A stretch of 64,000 nt of DNA from Poseidonibacter parvus (GTDB lineage: Bacteria; Campylobacterota; Campylobacteria; Campylobacterales; Arcobacteraceae), in the NCBI RefSeq assembly GCF_001956695.1, contig NZ_CP019070.1:1674001-1738000 (forward strand). The letters are read 5' to 3'. The notes beneath the pieces were generated by a model that worked only from the letters and a program-made list of their open reading frames with translations, made no database searches and was not told where the DNA came from. The position numbers and the translations under genes are program-made. Shown here one piece after another: positions 14,154 to 23,120 of the stretch. Numbering within the stretch: position 1 is the stretch's first letter; every line of letters starts with the position of its first letter.

Positions 14154-14735
14154 ATGACTATATATGATTTGAAACCAAAATTTCAAGATTTACTTCGTCC
14201 TATTGTAAGGAAATGTGCTAGTAAAGGCTACACTGCAAATCAAGTGACTTTATTTGCACTTTTTTTATCTTTTATCAGTGGGCTGATTATTTTACTAGCT
14301 AGTTTTAATATTAAACTTCTTCTTTTAATACCTATTATTATGTTTATTAGAATGGCACTAAATGCAATTGATGGAATGCTTGCAAAAGAGCATGATATGA
14401 AAACAAAAAAAGGTGCAATCTTAAATGAATTAAGTGATGTCCTTTCTGATGTTTTTTTATATTTACCTTTTATATTGTTTCTTGATATTTATCTTGTTGT
14501 AATAGTTGTTATTCTTTCTATTATCTCTGAGTTTACTGGGGTACTTTTTCAAGCAGTTTACAATGACAGAAGATATGATGGACCAATGGGAAAAAGTGAT
14601 AGAGCCTTTCTTTTTGGTTTAATTTCACTTCTATTAGTATTTAATGTAAATATTGTTTTTTTAAATATACTTCTAGCAATTAGTATTATACTTCTAGTAA
14701 TTACAATTTATAACAGATTAAAAGGATGTTTATAA
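14154..14735 (+). CDS. CDP-alcohol phosphatidyltransferase family protein, YnbA-like
   Basis: Predicted inner-membrane enzyme that transfers a phosphatidyl-type group from a CDP-activated lipid to an alcohol. The 193 residues hold several membrane helices and the family motif, but in variant form: N70-A-I-D73-G74-M-L-A77-K78, then G87, N91, D95 and an extra D99. The classical motif is DxxDGxxAR...GxxxDxxxD, so the first and third aspartates are Asn and the Arg is Lys. Length and neighbours match YnbA of the E. coli ynbABCD set. The next gene begins on this gene's stop codon (TAATG). First gene of the lipid cluster; product lipid unknown. Confidence 0.82.
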   Translation: MTIYDLKPKFQDLLRPIVRKCASKGYTANQVTLFALFLSFISGLIILLASFNIKLLLLIPIIMFIRMALNAIDGMLAKEHDMKTKKGAILNELSDVLSDVFLYLPFILFLDIYLVVIVVILSIISEFTGVLFQAVYNDRRYDGPMGKSDRAFLFGLISLLLVFNVNIVFLNILLAISIILLVITIYNRLKGCL

Positions 14736-15658
14736 TGAATATTTTAAACTCTCAAATTCTTACTACTTTTTCAATAATTCTTGCAATTTTAGCTTTTGCA
14801 TATTTTTTTATAAAACACCTACAAAAAAAGCAGAATAAACCTTTTACTGAACTTTATAATAGAACAATATCATGGATATATATGATTGGCTTTTTTATTG
14901 TTGGTGTTTATATAAATAATACCTTAGCAATCATATTTTTTGCAATGTTAAGTTTCCTAGCTTTAAAAGAATATTTTACATTAATTCCAACAAGACATAC
15001 AGATAGAAGGATCATGTTTTATGGATATATAGTAATTGCATTTCAATACTATTTTGCATATATTCAATGGTATGAAATGTTTATTATCTGTATTCCTGTT
15101 TATTTATATCTTCTTTTACCATTTAGACAAATGTTAATAGGTCAAACTGATGGCTTCATAAATAATACTAGTAAAGTACAATGGGGAGTGATGCTATTTG
15201 TATTTTGTATAAGTCATATGGCTTTTCTATTCTTCTTACCAAATATTGAAGTAGTTAGTGGTGCTATGATGGTTTTATATTTAGTATTTTTAACTCAATT
15301 TAATGATATTTTACAATATGTTTTTGGTAAAAGATTTGGTAAAAATAAAATCATTCCAAAAGTAAGTCCAAATAAAACTGTTGAAGGTTTTAGTGGAGCT
15401 GTTATTACTACAACAATTTTAGCAGTTATATTTTCATACCTAACACCTTTTACAGTTATTGAAGCAATAGGTGCAGGTCTAATTATAAGTATTGGTGGTT
15501 TTATTGGTGATGTTGTAGTTTCTATGATAAAAAGAGATGTTGGTGTTAAAGATGCTGGGAATTTAATAGCTGGTCATGGTGGAATTATTGATAGAATTGA
15601 TAGCTTAACATATACTACGCCTTTATTTTTTCATTATGTTTATTATTTATATTATTAA
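14735..15658 (+). CDS. CdsA-like phosphatidate cytidylyltransferase, YnbB-like
   Basis: Predicted membrane enzyme making a CDP-diacylglycerol-type donor from CTP and a phosphatidate. The 307-residue protein has about eight membrane helices and, near the C-terminus, the CdsA signature SMIKRDVGVKDAGNL then HGGIIDRIDS. The ATG at 14735 is chosen because AAAGGA lies 9 bases upstream; an ATG nine bases earlier would sit on that ribosome site. It couples to the preceding transferase through TAATG. A housekeeping cdsA would normally sit near dxr, uppS or frr, so this is probably a second, pathway-specific copy. Confidence 0.87.
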   Translation: MNILNSQILTTFSIILAILAFAYFFIKHLQKKQNKPFTELYNRTISWIYMIGFFIVGVYINNTLAIIFFAMLSFLALKEYFTLIPTRHTDRRIMFYGYIVIAFQYYFAYIQWYEMFIICIPVYLYLLLPFRQMLIGQTDGFINNTSKVQWGVMLFVFCISHMAFLFFLPNIEVVSGAMMVLYLVFLTQFNDILQYVFGKRFGKNKIIPKVSPNKTVEGFSGAVITTTILAVIFSYLTPFTVIEAIGAGLIISIGGFIGDVVVSMIKRDVGVKDAGNLIAGHGGIIDRIDSLTYTTPLFFHYVYYLYY

Positions 15659-15667
15659 GGTTTAGAG

Positions 15668-16279
15668 ATGTTTAAAAAACTATTTTTTGCTATTTTTGCA
15701 AAGCCTTTTATGTTTATAATTACAGGTCTTAGTATTAAAAATATAGAAAATCTACCAAAAGATGAACCATATGTTATTATTGCAAATCATAATAGCCATC
15801 TAGATATTTTAGCCATTATGACAATGTATTCAAATAAAGATATCGTAAATGTATCTCCCGTAGCTGCTAGTGATTATTTTTTTAAAAACAAATATATCAA
15901 ATGGATTTCAACACAATTAATTGGAATTCTTCCTATTAATAGAAAAGTAAATAGAAAAGATGGACAGCATCCATTAGATGGTGTTTATAAAGCTATAGAA
16001 GAGAACAAAACACTTATTATATTTCCAGAAGGAAGTCGTGGGGAAGCATCTGTTATGCAAAAGTTTAAAAATGGAATCGGACATATAGCAAAAAAATATC
16101 CAGATTTAAAAATTGTACCAATGGTATTAGAAAACACAGGAAAAGCATTACCTAAAAATGAAGCGCTTTTTATTCCTTTAATAATCAAATTAGAAATAAA
16201 AGAAGCAATTTGCTTTAATCAAGTAAATTCAAATGTAAATGACTTTGTATCATTATTAGAAGAAAATTTCAAAAACTAA
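15668..16279 (+). CDS. PlsC-like lysophospholipid acyltransferase
   Basis: A 203-residue 1-acyl-glycerol-3-phosphate acyltransferase-type protein. The catalytic HxxxxD is in NHNSHLD (about 39-45) and the glycerophosphate-binding motif in FPEGSRGE (about 119-126). One hydrophobic N-terminal segment suggests membrane association. AAGG lies 8 bases before the ATG and the gene is 9 bases downstream of the CdsA-like gene. In this setting it could supply the phosphatidate-type precursor or acylate the final product. The E. coli ynb set, as I recall it, lacks this gene. Confidence 0.87.
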   Translation: MFKKLFFAIFAKPFMFIITGLSIKNIENLPKDEPYVIIANHNSHLDILAIMTMYSNKDIVNVSPVAASDYFFKNKYIKWISTQLIGILPINRKVNRKDGQHPLDGVYKAIEENKTLIIFPEGSRGEASVMQKFKNGIGHIAKKYPDLKIVPMVLENTGKALPKNEALFIPLIIKLEIKEAICFNQVNSNVNDFVSLLEENFKN

Positions 16280-16288
16280 AGGCAAGAA

Positions 16289-18013
16289 ATGGAAGAAAAC
16301 ATAAATACTTTTAAAAGTTTTGATAAACAAAAACTTTTTTTTCGTAAATGGGAAAATATAAATACTTGGAATAAAAAAGTACTAATTGTGCTGCATAGAG
16401 GGCATGAGCACTCAAAAAGATTAGAAGAATTTGCTAAAACAAAAGCATTTGAAAATTATAAAATATATTCTTATGATAATAGAGGTCATGGAAAAACAAA
16501 AGTTGATGCAACATATGAATTTATGAATTTAGTTCGTGATTTAAACTCTTTTGTAAACTTTGTTTGTAAAGAAGAAAAGATTAAACAAGAAGATATTTTT
16601 GTAATTGCAAACTCTGTTGCAGGTGTTGTTGCATCTACTTGGATACATGATTATGCACCTAAAATTGCAGGAGTTGCTTTAGTTGCTCCTGCTTTTGAAA
16701 TAAAATTATATTTTCCCTTTGCCAAAGAATTTTTAGATTTAGCAATAAAAATAAAACCAGATTTAAACATCAAATCTTATGTAAAATCAAAGTTTTTAAC
16801 ACATGATAAAAATGAGCAAAAGATATATGATGAAGATAAACTTATAACTCCAAATATTCCAGCAAAACAACTAACAACACTACTTGATACTGCAAAAAGA
16901 GTGGTTAAGGATGCGACTTTAATTTCAACACCAACTTTAGTATTAAGTGCTTCAAAAGATTATGTTGTAAACAGTAGTATTCAAGGAGACTTTTATGCAA
17001 AACTTTCTTCAAAGATTAAAAAGTTTGTGAAACTAGATGGCTTCTTTCATGGTGTTTTATATGAAGACAAAAAAGATTTAGCAATAGAAGAAATAGTGGA
17101 TTTTATTGAACTTTGTTTTAAATCAGAAAAAGAAAACTATTTAAATGAAAAAATAAAGATTACTCAAGATGAAATCGATAAGATAGTTTACGGAAGTCAA
17201 TCTTTATGTGAGAAAACTTCATATTTTACACAAAGATTCATGCTTAATAATCTAGGTTTCATGAGTGATGGAATGAAAAAAGGCTTAAAATATGGATTTG
17301 ATTCAGGAGTAACTCTTGATTATATTTATGCAAATAAACCAAGTGGAAAAACGAAACTTGGTGAAATGATTGATAAAAACTATTTAAATAGTATTGGTTG
17401 GAAAGGGATTAGACAAAGAAAAGTAAATATGATTTCTACTTTAGAAGAAAAAATTGAAGCTTTAAATAAAGAAAATAAAAAAGTAAAAATTTTGGATATC
17501 GCTGGAGGACCTGCTAGATATTTAATAGAAATATGTAAAAAATACCCTAACATTCAAGTTTTGGTACAAGATTATCAAGAACAAAATATTAATGAAGGGA
17601 AACAATTAGTTAAAGAGTTTGGAATTGGAAATATTGCTTATAAACAAGCTGATGCTTTTGATAAAAATACATATTCAAAGGACATATTTGAACCAAATAT
17701 TGTAGTAGTTTCTGGGGTATTTGAGCTATTTCCTTCAAATGATTTGATTAAAAATGCAATTGAGGGTATAACAGCAGTTATTGAAGATAAGGGATATTTA
17801 GTTTATACAGGACAACCTTGGCATCCTCAATTAGCACAAATTGCAAACGTTTTAGGAAATCATAGAGATAAGCAATGGATTATGAGAAGAAGAAGTCAGT
17901 ATGAATTAGACTTGTTATTTAATGAATATAATTTTGAAAAAGAAAATATGAAAATAGATGACTGGGGAATTTTTACAGTTTCTTCTGCAAAGTTTAAAAA
18001 AGCTAATGACTAA
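16289..18013 (+). CDS. Alpha/beta hydrolase fused to SAM-dependent methyltransferase, YnbC-like
   Basis: A 574-residue two-domain protein. Residues about 1-280 form an alpha/beta hydrolase of the monoglyceride-lipase type: YSYDNRGHGKTK, a nucleophile elbow with Ser in ANSVAG (about 111-116), and a late histidine in DGFFHGVLYE (about 250-259). Residues about 385-570 form a class I methyltransferase with glycine loop ILDIAGGPARY and a later VVVSGVFELFPSN segment. Length and fusion match YnbC of E. coli. It starts 10 bases after the acyltransferase and overlaps the next gene by 8 bases. A lipid-modifying role is inferred from the neighbours. Confidence 0.85.
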   Translation: MEENINTFKSFDKQKLFFRKWENINTWNKKVLIVLHRGHEHSKRLEEFAKTKAFENYKIYSYDNRGHGKTKVDATYEFMNLVRDLNSFVNFVCKEEKIKQEDIFVIANSVAGVVASTWIHDYAPKIAGVALVAPAFEIKLYFPFAKEFLDLAIKIKPDLNIKSYVKSKFLTHDKNEQKIYDEDKLITPNIPAKQLTTLLDTAKRVVKDATLISTPTLVLSASKDYVVNSSIQGDFYAKLSSKIKKFVKLDGFFHGVLYEDKKDLAIEEIVDFIELCFKSEKENYLNEKIKITQDEIDKIVYGSQSLCEKTSYFTQRFMLNNLGFMSDGMKKGLKYGFDSGVTLDYIYANKPSGKTKLGEMIDKNYLNSIGWKGIRQRKVNMISTLEEKIEALNKENKKVKILDIAGGPARYLIEICKKYPNIQVLVQDYQEQNINEGKQLVKEFGIGNIAYKQADAFDKNTYSKDIFEPNIVVVSGVFELFPSNDLIKNAIEGITAVIEDKGYLVYTGQPWHPQLAQIANVLGNHRDKQWIMRRRSQYELDLLFNEYNFEKENMKIDDWGIFTVSSAKFKKAND

Positions 18014-19322
18014 AATATATAATCCATCCCTAGAAGCAAATGCAACTTTAAAAGAAAGAAGTGTTTGGCTTTTGTATCTTGGTGCTTTATTTTTTATTTT
18101 ATACGGAAGTGCAAATCAGTATGCTTTTTTAACGTCTCCTCATGAATCCTTTTTTATGCAATGGGAAGAAAATATTCCATTTATTGAAATATTTATAATT
18201 CCTTATATGTCATCTGATATATTATTTGCAATTGCACTACTACTGACTCAAACTAGGTTTGAGCTTAGAGTTTTAGCGCTTAGGATATTTATTACAATGA
18301 CTTTTTCTGTTTTTGTATTTGTTCTTTATCCTTTACAATTTTCTTTTGTAAAACCTGAAACTTCAAACTTTCTTTTTTCAATGCTAGAGCTTGATTTAGC
18401 TTATAATCAAATGCCCTCTTTACATATTAGTTTAGCTATTGTACTTTGGTTTTCAATGAAAGAACATATTTCAAATATTTTTATAAAATCATTTTTAGCC
18501 TTTTGGTTTATACTTATCTGCTTATCTACTTTGTTTGTTTATCAACATCATTTTATTGATATTCCAACAGGTGCGGTTGTTGGCTTTACCGTGGTTTATC
18601 TTATATCTTCGAAGAAAAAAACATATTTAACTTCGAGATTTATGACTCCTAGAAGTTTAAAAATGTCTTTGTACTATTTAATAGGTGTTCTTATATCAAT
18701 AATTTTATATTTTAACTTTAATTCATTTATTTTTATATATTTATTTTTAACAGCTTTAAGTATAAGTTTTATCTATGCTTTTGGTTTTAATTTATTATTG
18801 ACAAATGAAAAATCAAAACCAAATATATTTCAAAAAATACTATTTGCACCATATTTTATTGCTTCTTATTTTTCTTGGAATTATTATAAAAATAAAATAG
18901 ATTTTAAATCACAATTAAATGACAATATTTATTTTGGAAGACAAGCTACAAAAGAAGAGTATAAAGAACTTGAAGCACTAGGGATTAAAACCATTATAAA
19001 CCTTGCAAATGATCAACAATTTCATAAAACAAATATTAAAGAAATACGATATCCATTGTTGGATATGACAATGCAAGATCCAGTGATTTTACATCAAATA
19101 ATAAAAACAATAGAAAAACATTCAAATGAAAAAATATATATACACTGTACTCTAGGAATGTCAAGAAGTATTTTGGCTATATCATCCTATTTACTTTACA
19201 AAAAAAAATCAATAAATGAAGTAAATGAAATTATGAATAAACTAAGACCAATTTATGTTAAATCAAAATATATGAGTATAAATCTTGAGTTATATGAAAA
19301 ATTTATTTCCAAGAATAACTAA
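18006..19322 (+). CDS. PAP2 / dual-specificity phosphatase fusion, YnbD-like
   Basis: A 438-residue membrane protein. The N-terminal two-thirds has about eight membrane helices with PAP2 motifs MPSLHISLAI and HHFIDIPTGAVVGF (lipid-phosphate phosphatase). The soluble C-terminal part has a tyrosine/dual-specificity phosphatase loop HCTLGMSRS (Cx5R), with FGRQATKEEYKELEALGIKT resembling the start of such domains. This architecture matches YnbD of E. coli. The ATG at 18006 overlaps the preceding stop; the in-frame ATG at 17958 would overlap the methyltransferase by 56 bases. The combination suggests removal of a phosphate from a phospholipid intermediate such as a PGP-like or PIP-like lipid. Confidence 0.87.
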   Translation: MTKIYNPSLEANATLKERSVWLLYLGALFFILYGSANQYAFLTSPHESFFMQWEENIPFIEIFIIPYMSSDILFAIALLLTQTRFELRVLALRIFITMTFSVFVFVLYPLQFSFVKPETSNFLFSMLELDLAYNQMPSLHISLAIVLWFSMKEHISNIFIKSFLAFWFILICLSTLFVYQHHFIDIPTGAVVGFTVVYLISSKKKTYLTSRFMTPRSLKMSLYYLIGVLISIILYFNFNSFIFIYLFLTALSISFIYAFGFNLLLTNEKSKPNIFQKILFAPYFIASYFSWNYYKNKIDFKSQLNDNIYFGRQATKEEYKELEALGIKTIINLANDQQFHKTNIKEIRYPLLDMTMQDPVILHQIIKTIEKHSNEKIYIHCTLGMSRSILAISSYLLYKKKSINEVNEIMNKLRPIYVKSKYMSINLELYEKFISKNN

Positions 19323-20164: not shown

Positions 20165-20575
20165 ATGAAAGTAGTTACAGGAGTTGTTGGCAATGATATC
20201 CATGTTGTTGCAAACAGACTTATTGATATATCATTACAAGCACGTGGATTTGAAGTATTTAACTTAGGTGTTAATACTTATTTAGAAGAATTTCTTGATG
20301 CAGTTGTTGAAACAAATGCTGATATTTTATTAATATCATCATTAAATGGCGAAGCTGAAGGATGGTGTAGAGAAGTTAAAATCTTAAAGTCAAAATATGG
20401 AAATCTTTTAGATAATGTAGTATTTATGATTGGTGGAAACTTAACAGTAGGAACAGGAAGTAATGATGAAATTGTTGCTAAGTTTAAAGATTACGGTTTT
20501 GATTTAGTATTTCATCAAATTGATTTAAATACAGGACTTGATTCACTAGAAACATACTTGAAGGAGAGAAAATAA
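20165..20575 (+). CDS. glmS: Glutamate mutase S (cobalamin-binding) subunit
   Basis: Small B12-binding subunit of adenosylcobalamin-dependent methylaspartate mutase (EC 5.4.99.1), 136 residues, one Rossmann-like domain. The base-off motif DxHxxG appears as D11-I-H13-V-V-A16, so the axial histidine is kept but the glycine is alanine. SSLNG (about 59-63) and GGNLTVG (about 95-101) are the other cofactor-loop motifs. Its stop overlaps the next start (TAATG). It leads a four-gene operon. No cobalamin riboswitch fits in the 139-base upstream gap. The symbol follows mutase usage and is not the glucosamine synthase glmS. Confidence 0.87.
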   Translation: MKVVTGVVGNDIHVVANRLIDISLQARGFEVFNLGVNTYLEEFLDAVVETNADILLISSLNGEAEGWCREVKILKSKYGNLLDNVVFMIGGNLTVGTGSNDEIVAKFKDYGFDLVFHQIDLNTGLDSLETYLKERK

Positions 20576-21942
20576 TGAGTTTACTTCAAGAAGAAAGAGA
20601 TATTATTATCCAAAATAAATATGCAGATGATTTTGATTTTGCTGAGATTGAAGAGTTTGTAAAAAATGCTTCAAAAGATTTATTTATATCTCATAGATTT
20701 AAAAATGCAAATAAAATGCTTGTTCAACCTCGTGGTGGTTTTCCAACTTATCAAAAACAATATGACTTATATGAGTTTTTTGTAAATGCAGATGTTGATA
20801 TTTTACCCTTAACTATTGATTCTAATACAAGATTAAATGACTATGCAACATCTGCTAAGATGTTAAAACTTTCTGAAGAAAATGAAGTTGATATGTTAAA
20901 TGGATATCCATTAGTAAATCATGGTTATAAAACTACAAGAAAAATGATTACACATTTTAATAAGCCTGTAAGTCTAAGACACGGAACTCCAGATGCAAGA
21001 CTTTTAATAGAAACTGCAATTGCATCAGGAATATTTGAAATTGAAGGTGGACCAATTACTTACCTTTTACCATATTCAAAAAACTTTCCATTAGATAAGG
21101 CTTTTTTATATTGGAAATACGTTGAACGAGTATGTGCAAATTATTCAAAATTAAATGAACCAATTAATAGAGAATCATTTGGACCATTAACTGCAACACT
21201 AGTGCCTCCTTGTGTAACTATTGTAATTCAATTACTTGAAATGCTTTTATCACTTGAAGAAGGTGTAAAGTCATTCTCAGTATCTTTCTCGCAAACTGGT
21301 TCTATGAATCAAGATATAGTTACTGGTGCAGTTATTAGAAAAATGGCAAAATATTATGCAGAAGAAATTGGCTGTGGTGATGCATCAGTTCATTTAGTAT
21401 ATCATCAATGGATGGGAGCCTTCCCTACTGATAAAAACTTTGCAGAATGTTTAATTAATACTTCAACTGTAATTGCATCAATGGTTGGTGCTGATAAGAT
21501 TATTACAAAAACAAGAGAAGAAGCATCAGGAATTCCAACAAAAGAAGCAAATGCTAAAACAGTTGCAAATACTCAATATACTCTAAGAATGTTAAATGGA
21601 CTTCCAAATGTAGTTGATAAAGAAGAAGAAGAGATTTTAACAGAAGAAGTAATGAGCATAATGGAAGCAGTATTCAATGACCCTGCTGATACTTTATGGA
21701 GAAAAGTCTTTAACTCTATTAAAAATGGAACTATTGATGTTCCTTTCTCTCCACATATTATTAATCATAATGAAGTAGTAACAGTAAGAGATAAAAACAA
21801 AAATATCAGAATTATAAAAAAAGGTAATTTACCAATTAGTGATAGATGTTTTGAATATGAAAAGAAACACTGTGATTTAAATAAAGATGCCTCATCAATA
21901 GTAAATGATATTATTCATGATATAGGAATTATGCAATGGTAG
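20575..21942 (+). CDS. glmE: Glutamate mutase E (catalytic) subunit
   Basis: Catalytic TIM-barrel subunit, 455 residues, which rearranges (S)-glutamate to (2S,3S)-3-methylaspartate with the S subunit. Recognisable stretches are VQPRGGFPTYQKQYDLYE, IDSNTRLNDY, LNGYPLVNHGY and SLRHGTPDARLL, the last carrying the substrate-binding arginine, followed by EIEGGPITYLLPYSK. AAGGAG precedes the ATG, which sits on the stop codon of the S subunit gene. It overlaps the L gene by 7 bases. Nothing truncated. Confidence 0.9.
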   Translation: MSLLQEERDIIIQNKYADDFDFAEIEEFVKNASKDLFISHRFKNANKMLVQPRGGFPTYQKQYDLYEFFVNADVDILPLTIDSNTRLNDYATSAKMLKLSEENEVDMLNGYPLVNHGYKTTRKMITHFNKPVSLRHGTPDARLLIETAIASGIFEIEGGPITYLLPYSKNFPLDKAFLYWKYVERVCANYSKLNEPINRESFGPLTATLVPPCVTIVIQLLEMLLSLEEGVKSFSVSFSQTGSMNQDIVTGAVIRKMAKYYAEEIGCGDASVHLVYHQWMGAFPTDKNFAECLINTSTVIASMVGADKIITKTREEASGIPTKEANAKTVANTQYTLRMLNGLPNVVDKEEEEILTEEVMSIMEAVFNDPADTLWRKVFNSIKNGTIDVPFSPHIINHNEVVTVRDKNKNIRIIKKGNLPISDRCFEYEKKHCDLNKDASSIVNDIIHDIGIMQW

Positions 21943-23120
21943 AAAATAAACTTTTAATAGACATAGGAAGTACTTACTTCAAAGTTGCAACAAATGATAA
22001 AGTTGAGCAACATTTTAGAGATTTTAATAAAAATATTTATGATGATTTAGTATCAAAATGTGGAAGTAAGATTGAAGGTTTTGCAAAAGATGAAGTATAT
22101 ATTTGTTCATCTGCAAATGGTGGTTTATCAACTTTAGTAATTGGTGTTACAAACTCTTTTTCATTAAAGTTTGCAAAAAATATTGCTTATAATTCTGGAA
22201 TTAATATTATAGATACTGTTTTATACCAAGATATTAAAAAAGCCTCAGTTCCAAGTGATTTAATCGATGTTGTAATAATTGTTGGTGGAATAAATAGCGT
22301 TGATGGTTTATTTGATGAAGATTTATTTAATTACTTAGAAAATGTAAATTACTCAAATGTCGTATTTGCAGGTTCATCTAAAGATGCAAATTACTTAAGT
22401 TCAAAAATTGAGAACCTAATTATTATTGAAAATATAATCAATAATAAACTGCATGTTGTAGAAGAGCCTTTAAAAGAATATTTAACTAATCTTTATCAAG
22501 CTGATATCATGGGTAAGGAAGATATTAAACACCTTTATGATTTAACATCAAATCAAATTTATTCAACTCCTTATATTGTAAATAAGACATTACCAATGAT
22601 TGATTCAAAATTTGCAGCAGTTAATCCATTTATTTTAATTGATATTGGTGGAGCTACAACAGATATTCATTATTCAAAAGATTTATCTGATGATAATATC
22701 GTTACAGAAAATGAATATGATAGATTAGTATTTAAAAAACTAGGTGTTTTTAAATCACGTGAGTCTTTAATATTTGCAGCACAAAACAATGAATTTGTAT
22801 ATGAATTACTTGCACATTTAAAAGTTACAGAAAATATATTTAATGAAAATAATGAAAAAAGCCTTAGAATTTTAATGCAACTTGCTATTTTCTTAGTAAT
22901 GTATAAAGTATCAGAAGTTCATCCTTTATATATTAAATTAAAACTAGAATTGTTAAAATCTGTTGTTTTAACAGGTGGAATTACCAAGGTTCTAAGTTTT
23001 GAAGAAGTTGAGGATATTATTGCATTTTTCTATAAAAAAATATTAAATAGTGAAGTTCATCCTTCAATTGTTTTAGATTCAAATTATGATATTTGGACTC
23101 TTGGAATTACTCAAAAGTAA
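21936..23120 (+). CDS. Glutamate mutase L (MutL/GlmL) accessory protein
   Basis: A 394-residue protein of the acetate kinase/Hsp70/actin fold: LLIDIGSTYFKVAT (4-17) is the phosphate-1 loop and FILIDIGGATTDIHYS (about 232-247) the second, with a late VVLTGGITKVLSF adenosine-type motif. Members lie next to glutamate mutase S and E genes and are thought to reactivate the B12 enzyme. The start overlaps glmE by 7 bases, and the stop lies 11 bases before the ligase start. Confidence 0.85.
   Translation: MVENKLLIDIGSTYFKVATNDKVEQHFRDFNKNIYDDLVSKCGSKIEGFAKDEVYICSSANGGLSTLVIGVTNSFSLKFAKNIAYNSGINIIDTVLYQDIKKASVPSDLIDVVIIVGGINSVDGLFDEDLFNYLENVNYSNVVFAGSSKDANYLSSKIENLIIIENIINNKLHVVEEPLKEYLTNLYQADIMGKEDIKHLYDLTSNQIYSTPYIVNKTLPMIDSKFAAVNPFILIDIGGATTDIHYSKDLSDDNIVTENEYDRLVFKKLGVFKSRESLIFAAQNNEFVYELLAHLKVTENIFNENNEKSLRILMQLAIFLVMYKVSEVHPLYIKLKLELLKSVVLTGGITKVLSFEEVEDIIAFFYKKILNSEVHPSIVLDSNYDIWTLGITQK

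Follow-up and report, generated by a model that had tools for sequence, protein, structure and literature searches.

An acyltransferase-bearing ynbABCD-type operon of Poseidonibacter parvus as a candidate source of a dedicated glycerophospholipid

In a stretch of 64,000 nucleotides from the genome of Poseidonibacter parvus (contig NZ_CP019070.1, positions 1,674,001 to 1,738,000; hereafter the window), five adjacent genes at positions 14154 to 19322 form an acyltransferase-bearing variant of the already known ynbABCD-type operon. On balance, we favour the view that the operon is an accessory one of patchy occurrence and serves to make a single, dedicated glycerophospholipid. The gene set, the protein families, the catalytic-type residues, the acceptor-phosphate arginines, the altered metal motif and the predicted topology can be read from the sequence and from structural models. 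A first-pass annotation of the window had described the operon and its general logic, which holds for the most part. The altered metal motif of the transferase, the unusual PAP2 motifs and predicted opposite-side topology of the terminal phosphatase fusion, and the distribution across seven phyla go beyond that annotation.

The five genes all lie on the + strand, in the order and at the positions first reported. A YnbA-like class I CDP-alcohol phosphotransferase of 193 amino acids (14154 to 14735) is followed by a 310-residue YnbB-like CDP-diacylglycerol synthase paralogue (14726 to 15658), a PlsC-type acyltransferase of 203 residues (15668 to 16279; PF01553, 82.4 bits), a YnbC-like fusion of an alpha/beta hydrolase with a SAM methyltransferase, 574 residues long (16289 to 18013; PF12146, Hydrolase_4, 178.7 bits, and PF12147, Methyltransf_20, 322.3 bits) and a YnbD-like protein that joins a PAP2-type membrane domain to a dual-specificity phosphatase (18006 to 19322; PF00782, DSPc, 51.1 bits). 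Pfam scores exceed the cut-offs for CDP-OH_P_transf, CTP_transf_1, Acyltransferase, Hydrolase_4, Methyltransf_20 and DSPc, so that the earlier domain assignments are borne out, with PAP2 just below its cut-off. Likewise, the proposed homology of four genes to Escherichia coli ynbABCD, in the same order and with the same domain fusions, agrees with identities of 48, 40, 39 and 30% to YnbA, YnbB, YnbC and YnbD, respectively, over most of their length; the acyltransferase is without counterpart in that operon.

A single operon is also supported by the spacing of the genes. In the list of open reading frames the junctions measure −10, +9 and +9 bases, the two final genes overlap, and the nearest flanking frames stand 62 bases from the cluster on both sides. 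The YnbD-like gene more likely starts at 18006, overlapping the YnbC-like gene by 8 bases, than at the longer frame start of 17958, because close homologues begin there; residue numbers for YnbD below nevertheless count from 17958. Promoter and terminator scans of the cluster gave results at chance level only, with a single terminator-like site between 13950 and 19500 (17303 to 17319, within the YnbC-like gene), where one is expected by chance.

The association of these genes recurs well beyond the window. A scan of 84,980 species genomes yielded at least 589 candidate stretches, of which at least 571 were YnbC relatives, and the best 80 were kept, a sample biased by its selection for likeness to the window YnbC. 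These best 80 of at least 571 belong to seven named phyla, namely Pseudomonadota (36), Bacteroidota (28), Campylobacterota (8), Bdellovibrionota (3), Thermodesulfobacteriota, Fusobacteriota and Planctomycetota (1 each), and 2 are unplaced. Co-occurrence of the genes, a check suggested by the first-pass annotation, was examined in the 61 of these 80 loci, all from other genomes, that carry at least 5 kb on either side of the YnbC homologue (full-flank loci). YnbA is present in 58 of these, YnbB in 51, YnbD in 49, and either an acyltransferase (24) or a patatin (30) in 54, with both in none. The gene set is far from a chance association. Its order is A-B-P-C-D (P being the acyltransferase gene) in the window, in some Campylobacterota (L022, L023, L031 and L033) and in Brenneria and Pantoea (L094 and L104); A-P-B-C-D in another family of Campylobacterota (L018 to L021); A-C-D-P-B in many Betaproteobacteria; and A-B-patatin-SDR-D-C, where SDR is a short-chain dehydrogenase, in most Bacteroidota loci. 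Because gene content is conserved while order changes, we favour a single pathway. The YnbC methyltransferase domain occurs in 3 of 104 genomes of the window's family, in 1 of the 10 genomes listed for its genus (the window's own) and in 10 of 298 sampled genomes of the phylum; the operon is thus patchily distributed, perhaps through horizontal movement.

YnbA belongs to the CDP-alcohol phosphotransferases by its PF01066 score (33.4 bits against a cut-off of 22) and by its AlphaFold2 model (pLDDT 93.6), which matches six solved kinds with Z of 12 to 20. The signature D1xxD2G1xxAR...G2xxxD3xxxD4 of this family is described as eight absolutely conserved residues (PMC4634129), whose aspartates hold metal ions (two in PgsA1 of Mycobacterium tuberculosis) and whose D4 acts as the base (PMC4634129, PMC6506517). 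The window YnbA reads N70-x2-D73-G74-x2-A77-K78-x8-G87-x3-N91-x3-D95. Asn occupies both D1 and D3 in all 79 YnbA-type rows, two of which (L023 and L035) probably come from one genome. No row departs from D2, D4, the two glycines or the alanine, and the signature R is K or another residue in 21 of the 79; the YnbA and YnbD alignments used to judge invariance were made of rows selected as near full length. As a paired control, we collected the CDP-alcohol transferases of ten cluster-carrying genomes (30 of 33 matches gave a locus) and the three of the host genome. Among these 33 loci, 9 are YnbA-type with the pattern NDND and 22 others have DDDD (20 in the strict pattern, 2 with looser spacing), so that every readable paralogue keeps its aspartates; L124 and L125 could not be read. 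As D1 and D3 of the signature are replaced while the other readable transferases keep all four aspartates, YnbA is better described as a divergent branch than as a canonical member of the family. Because the D-to-N change is paired and the base is intact, YnbA seems more likely to be active, with its metal or charge balance altered, than to be a decayed enzyme.

The nearest structures to the YnbA model are phosphatidylinositol phosphate (PIP) synthases, AF2299 and DIPP synthase (Z 18.3 to 20.1), ahead of cholinephosphotransferases (14.1 to 17.7), phosphatidylglycerol phosphate (PGP) synthase (12.4) and phosphatidylserine synthase (12.3). In M. tuberculosis PgsA1 the acceptor phosphate is bound by R155 and R195 (PMC4634129, PMC6506517). 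YnbA R150 and R188 align with these residues; R150 is found in each of 79 rows and R188 in each of 45. Because both arginines are retained, the acceptor of YnbA most likely carries a phosphate, and a phosphatase step must then follow, which is the sequence of events that the first-pass annotation had proposed. Analysis of the neighbours of the loci revealed no widely shared extra gene that obviously makes the acceptor.

YnbB is assigned to its family by CTP_transf_1 (PF01148), which it matches with 223.7 bits against a cut-off of 24, and has a conserved C-terminal half. Its low score with the CdsA family model PRK11624 (111.9 bits against 385) does not speak for divergence, because the genome's other CdsA-type gene scores as low (113.8), making the model non-discriminating here. 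In E. coli, ynbB surfaced in a transposon screen of a strain whose only enterobacterial common antigen is the phosphatidylglycerol-linked form (ECA-PG), yet the gene is reported to be dispensable for ECA-PG synthesis (PMC8609368).

The host genome, a single contig of 2.87 Mb, holds three CDP-alcohol transferase genes and two CdsA-type (PF01148) genes. Elsewhere in the genome are a PgsA (L001; 158.8 bits against a cut-off of 109.1), a PssA-like gene whose score of 91.6 bits is below the pssA cut-off of 107, and the second CdsA-type gene; both of the CDP-alcohol transferases other than YnbA keep all four aspartates. Because these genes lie elsewhere, we regard the branch as accessory and rejected ordinary synthesis of phosphatidylethanolamine and phosphatidylglycerol as its main function. 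This separation had been anticipated by the first-pass annotation.

Both fusion proteins retain catalytic-type residues. The hydrolase half of YnbC has a probable triad, Ser109/Asp224/His254, that is invariant in 38 of 38 rows, and among solved proteins it is closest in sequence to monoglyceride lipases. Next to the YnbC gene in L040, L045, L048, L054 and L105 lies another methyltransferase gene, which was assigned to PF00891 in the one case examined (L048). In YnbD, whose model has a pLDDT of 93.8, the phosphatase residues C397-x5-R403 are kept in all 40 full-length rows, and the phosphatase domain matches a complex of PTPMT1 with PI(5)P at Z 17.4, tied with other phosphatases at about 17. 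Residues 235 to 442 (18660 to 19283), comprising the last helices and the phosphatase, also match NCBIfam PRK12361 with 70.9 bits, below its cut-off of 505; we take this model to describe a fusion with a lipid kinase.

The PAP2 part of YnbD is more unusual. The window protein scores 24.9 bits, just under the cut-off of 27.2, and 38 of 40 alignment members, including that of the window, match at E ≤ 0.05. H156, H197 and D201, the PAP2 histidines and aspartate, are present in 40 of 40. YnbD nevertheless departs from each of the canonical motifs Kx6RP (C1), PSGH (C2) and SRx5Hx3D (C3): the C1 Lys is Pro and the C2 Gly is Leu in all 40, while in place of the C3 Arg 26 rows have Thr and 14 have Val. 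A search of solved structures by sequence found no match to this part, and the fold lists obtained with the whole model were filled by the phosphatase domain; the PAP2 assignment rests therefore on Pfam and on motifs. When the helices were assigned manually from the model, the phosphatase-domain side of the membrane carried most of the basic residues in 39 of 40 YnbD proteins. Since this favours placing the phosphatase side inside, YnbD probably has its phosphatase site in the cytosol and its PAP2 site directed outward, across the membrane from it. Near YnbD, 13 loci encode a small protein, membrane-like and some 137 residues long (E ≤ 0.01, some matches weak; e.g. L075:7961-8374 and L021:11342-11752), and the two examples tested gave no Pfam match.

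The acyltransferase carries H41-x4-D46 and E121-G-x-R124, invariant in the nine aligned sequences, which we take to be the HX4D and EGxR motifs of PlsC-type acyltransferases; its score with TIGR00530 is 76.9, below the cut-off of 102.95. In Bacteroidota, Fusobacterium, Desulfobacterales and Oxalobacteraceae the gene is replaced by one for a patatin-like phospholipase, usually together with a short-chain dehydrogenase (e.g. L046:5915-7701). A tree of YnbC was built from 88 rows, of which 42 have an acyltransferase, 33 a patatin and 13 neither (L027, L028 and L035 were dropped beforehand). The two genes occur together in none of the 88. Their mutual exclusion is not significant once corrected for descent (sign test over 6 independent pairs on starred branches, median p 1, range 0.5 to 1); L047, L070, L079, L083 and L099, which have neither gene and less than 5 kb on one side, were left out of these pairs.

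The first-pass annotation regarded the acyltransferase as inserted into a ynbABCD set. The comparison does not uphold this reading, given the acyltransferase or patatin of most full-flank loci, and we replace it by a likely loss in Escherichia. In the YnbC tree, Escherichia stands beside Brenneria, Citrobacter (a remnant) and Pantoea, all with an acyltransferase; Xenorhabdus, which has neither gene, is next out, and the wider kin mostly have the acyltransferase. Under unweighted parsimony, two losses (in Xenorhabdus and in Escherichia) cost as many changes as a single loss with a regain. Loss in Escherichia is favoured because the acyltransferase gene holds the same place, between those for YnbB and YnbC, and because the enteric acyltransferases group with that of L075, whose YnbC pairs with the YnbC of Iodobacter (L071, which has a split acyltransferase frame). 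In E. coli a 15-base gap lies at this place. The parsimony tie speaks against this reading, as does the division of the acyltransferases into two lineages, from which it follows that the gene was recruited more than once. The Citrobacter cluster (L103:8132-11918) is decayed: YnbA is reduced to its start and the acyltransferase to its end, YnbB was not found and YnbD is split.

From these features we infer the following reactions, their order and the type of product. The acyltransferase would supply or re-acylate the lipid, and YnbB would convert phosphatidic acid and CTP to CDP-diacylglycerol. YnbA would then pass the phosphatidyl group to an alcohol that carries a phosphate, so that phosphatidyl-X-phosphate forms and CMP is released, and the cytosolic dual-specificity phosphatase domain of YnbD would take off the terminal phosphate. 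Methylation of the head group would fall to the methyltransferase half of YnbC, and editing of the acyl chains to its lipase-like half together with the acyltransferase. On the outer face, the PAP2-type half of YnbD could act further, perhaps in head-group transfer. The undescribed membrane lipid predicted by the first-pass annotation would be the outcome, and we likewise infer it. We propose, more tentatively and with less confidence than even odds would imply, that YnbA founds a new class of CDP-alcohol phosphotransferases with a re-tooled metal site and that it acts with YnbB, YnbC, YnbD and an enzyme for acyl editing to produce a methylated phospholipid undescribed in any bacterium, including E. 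coli.

Several observations weigh against this pathway. The asparagines at D1 and D3 could mean that the reaction of YnbA has been lost or changed. The phosphatase domain of YnbD could act on protein, because its match to PTPMT1 ties with matches to protein phosphatases, and 36 of 40 YnbD rows match PAP2_3 (PF14378) at E ≤ 0.05 (best 1.1e-10), the window protein not being among them. In E. coli, YnbB cannot replace CdsA, a result given there as data not shown (PMC6362211), and YnbD complements neither PGP-phosphatase nor undecaprenyl-pyrophosphate-phosphatase mutants (PMC7413402). Finally, YnbC occurs without YnbA, YnbB or YnbD in two of the 61 full-flank loci (L082 and L105, Woeseiaceae), and one campylobacterotal locus (L024:9131-10045) has a methyltransferase-only YnbC without the hydrolase and no YnbD in the stretch examined; not every step of the pathway can therefore be obligatory.

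Four other explanations were considered. An extra route to phosphatidylglycerol, in which YnbA uses glycerol-3-phosphate, YnbD removes the phosphate and YnbC trims the product, would have an identical order of steps and would draw on a common metabolite, and the pgsA model TIGR00560 picks up 29 of the 45 YnbA homologues at E ≤ 0.001. We consider it unlikely, as the genome has its own four-aspartate PgsA, the YnbA model lies farther from PGP synthase than from PIP synthases, and E. coli YnbD does not rescue the PGP-phosphatase mutant (PMC7413402). The operon might instead be a backup for the glycolipid MPIase, with YnbB making CDP-diacylglycerol and N-acetylglucosamine-pyrophosphate-diacylglycerol (GlcNAc-PP-diacylglycerol) and the other genes accessory. 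Overproduction of E. coli YnbB indeed raises MPIase, but in the same study a ynbB knockout caused no significant change in MPIase (PMC6362211). Moreover, a CDP-alcohol transferase, a methyltransferase and two phosphatase-type domains are not obviously needed for a GlcNAc-PP-lipid, and the gene set is also found in Bacteroidota, Campylobacterota and others, all of which makes this role quite unlikely.

The conserved asparagines raise the question of whether YnbA is a pseudo-enzyme or regulator in an operon for lipid turnover (lipase, phosphatase and acyl editing) rather than synthesis, since in 79 of 79 homologues they replace two of the four metal-ligand aspartates. The invariance of D2, the catalytic base D4, both glycines, the alanine and the acceptor arginines, and the retention of the donor synthase YnbB in 51 of 61 full-flank loci, make this very unlikely. 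Least probable of all is synthesis of phosphatidylinositol, with YnbA as PIP synthase and YnbD as PIP phosphatase. At E ≤ 0.001, each of the 45 YnbA rows hits the models for archaetidylinositol-phosphate synthase and PIP synthase, and both acceptor arginines are conserved; however, the window YnbA is far under the curated PIP-synthase-type cut-offs (64.8 bits against 180 for NF040950 and 29 against 170 for NF045883), its D1 and D3 depart from the signature given for PIP synthases (PMC4634129), and the inositol-1-phosphate synthase domain PF01658 has no match in the host genome (E. coli was not among the positive controls either). Because the genome is without that domain, inositol phosphate is a less likely acceptor than glycerol-3-phosphate or some other common phosphate.

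The lipid chemistry of E. coli is widely regarded as nearly complete. At least 80% of the operon DNA is found in one place in 4242 of 5426 complete E. coli genomes, a figure that measures DNA coverage rather than gene intactness, and by this measure the DNA for one more phospholipid branch is present in most genomes of the species. In the open-access literature searched, we found no paper that says what the complete E. coli operon makes. An early cholinephosphotransferase label for YnbA was withdrawn by EcoCyc (PMC3781023), and activation of ynbA by BglJ-RcsB is cited in PMC12871917; three E. coli expression papers (PMC13313352, PMC12871917 and PMC9068703) offered no mechanism for the operon. 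New here are the consistent replacement of D1 and D3 by Asn and the conservation of the acceptor-phosphate site, together with the split topology predicted for YnbD and what is likely a reduced version of the operon in E. coli. The comparison yields points that can be tested: that the acceptor bears a phosphate, that the product is methylated, that the metal site is deviant, and that acyl editing takes place, a step possibly lost in Escherichia. If YnbA is active, the rule of metal catalysis for the large CDP-alcohol phosphotransferase family will need widening, because its metal site departs from a signature called absolutely conserved.

Beyond the cluster, the frame directly after that for YnbD is a DsbA-like gene, and positions 20165 to 23120 carry genes for subunits S and E of glutamate (methylaspartate) mutase and a GlmL-like gene.

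Among known systems, the closest is ynbABCD of E. coli K-12 (b1408 to b1411), which agrees in gene order, in both domain fusions and in having Asn at D1 and D3 of its transferase, and differs in the 15-base gap where the window has its PlsC-type gene. With CdsA, YnbB has the CTP_transf_1 domain in common; it is nonetheless distinct from the genome's second CdsA-type gene, and its E. coli counterpart fails to complement cdsA (PMC6362211, data not shown there). YnbD shares the C-x5-R motif and the fold of PTPMT1-type phosphatases, but is fused to a PAP2-type membrane domain, and its match is tied with those to protein phosphatases. YnbA, in turn, shares with the PIP synthases of M. tuberculosis (PgsA1) and R. 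salmoninarum the fold, D2, the catalytic base D4 and both acceptor-phosphate arginines, and differs from them by Asn at D1 and D3, by family scores below the cut-offs and by its setting in a genome without the inositol-phosphate synthase domain.

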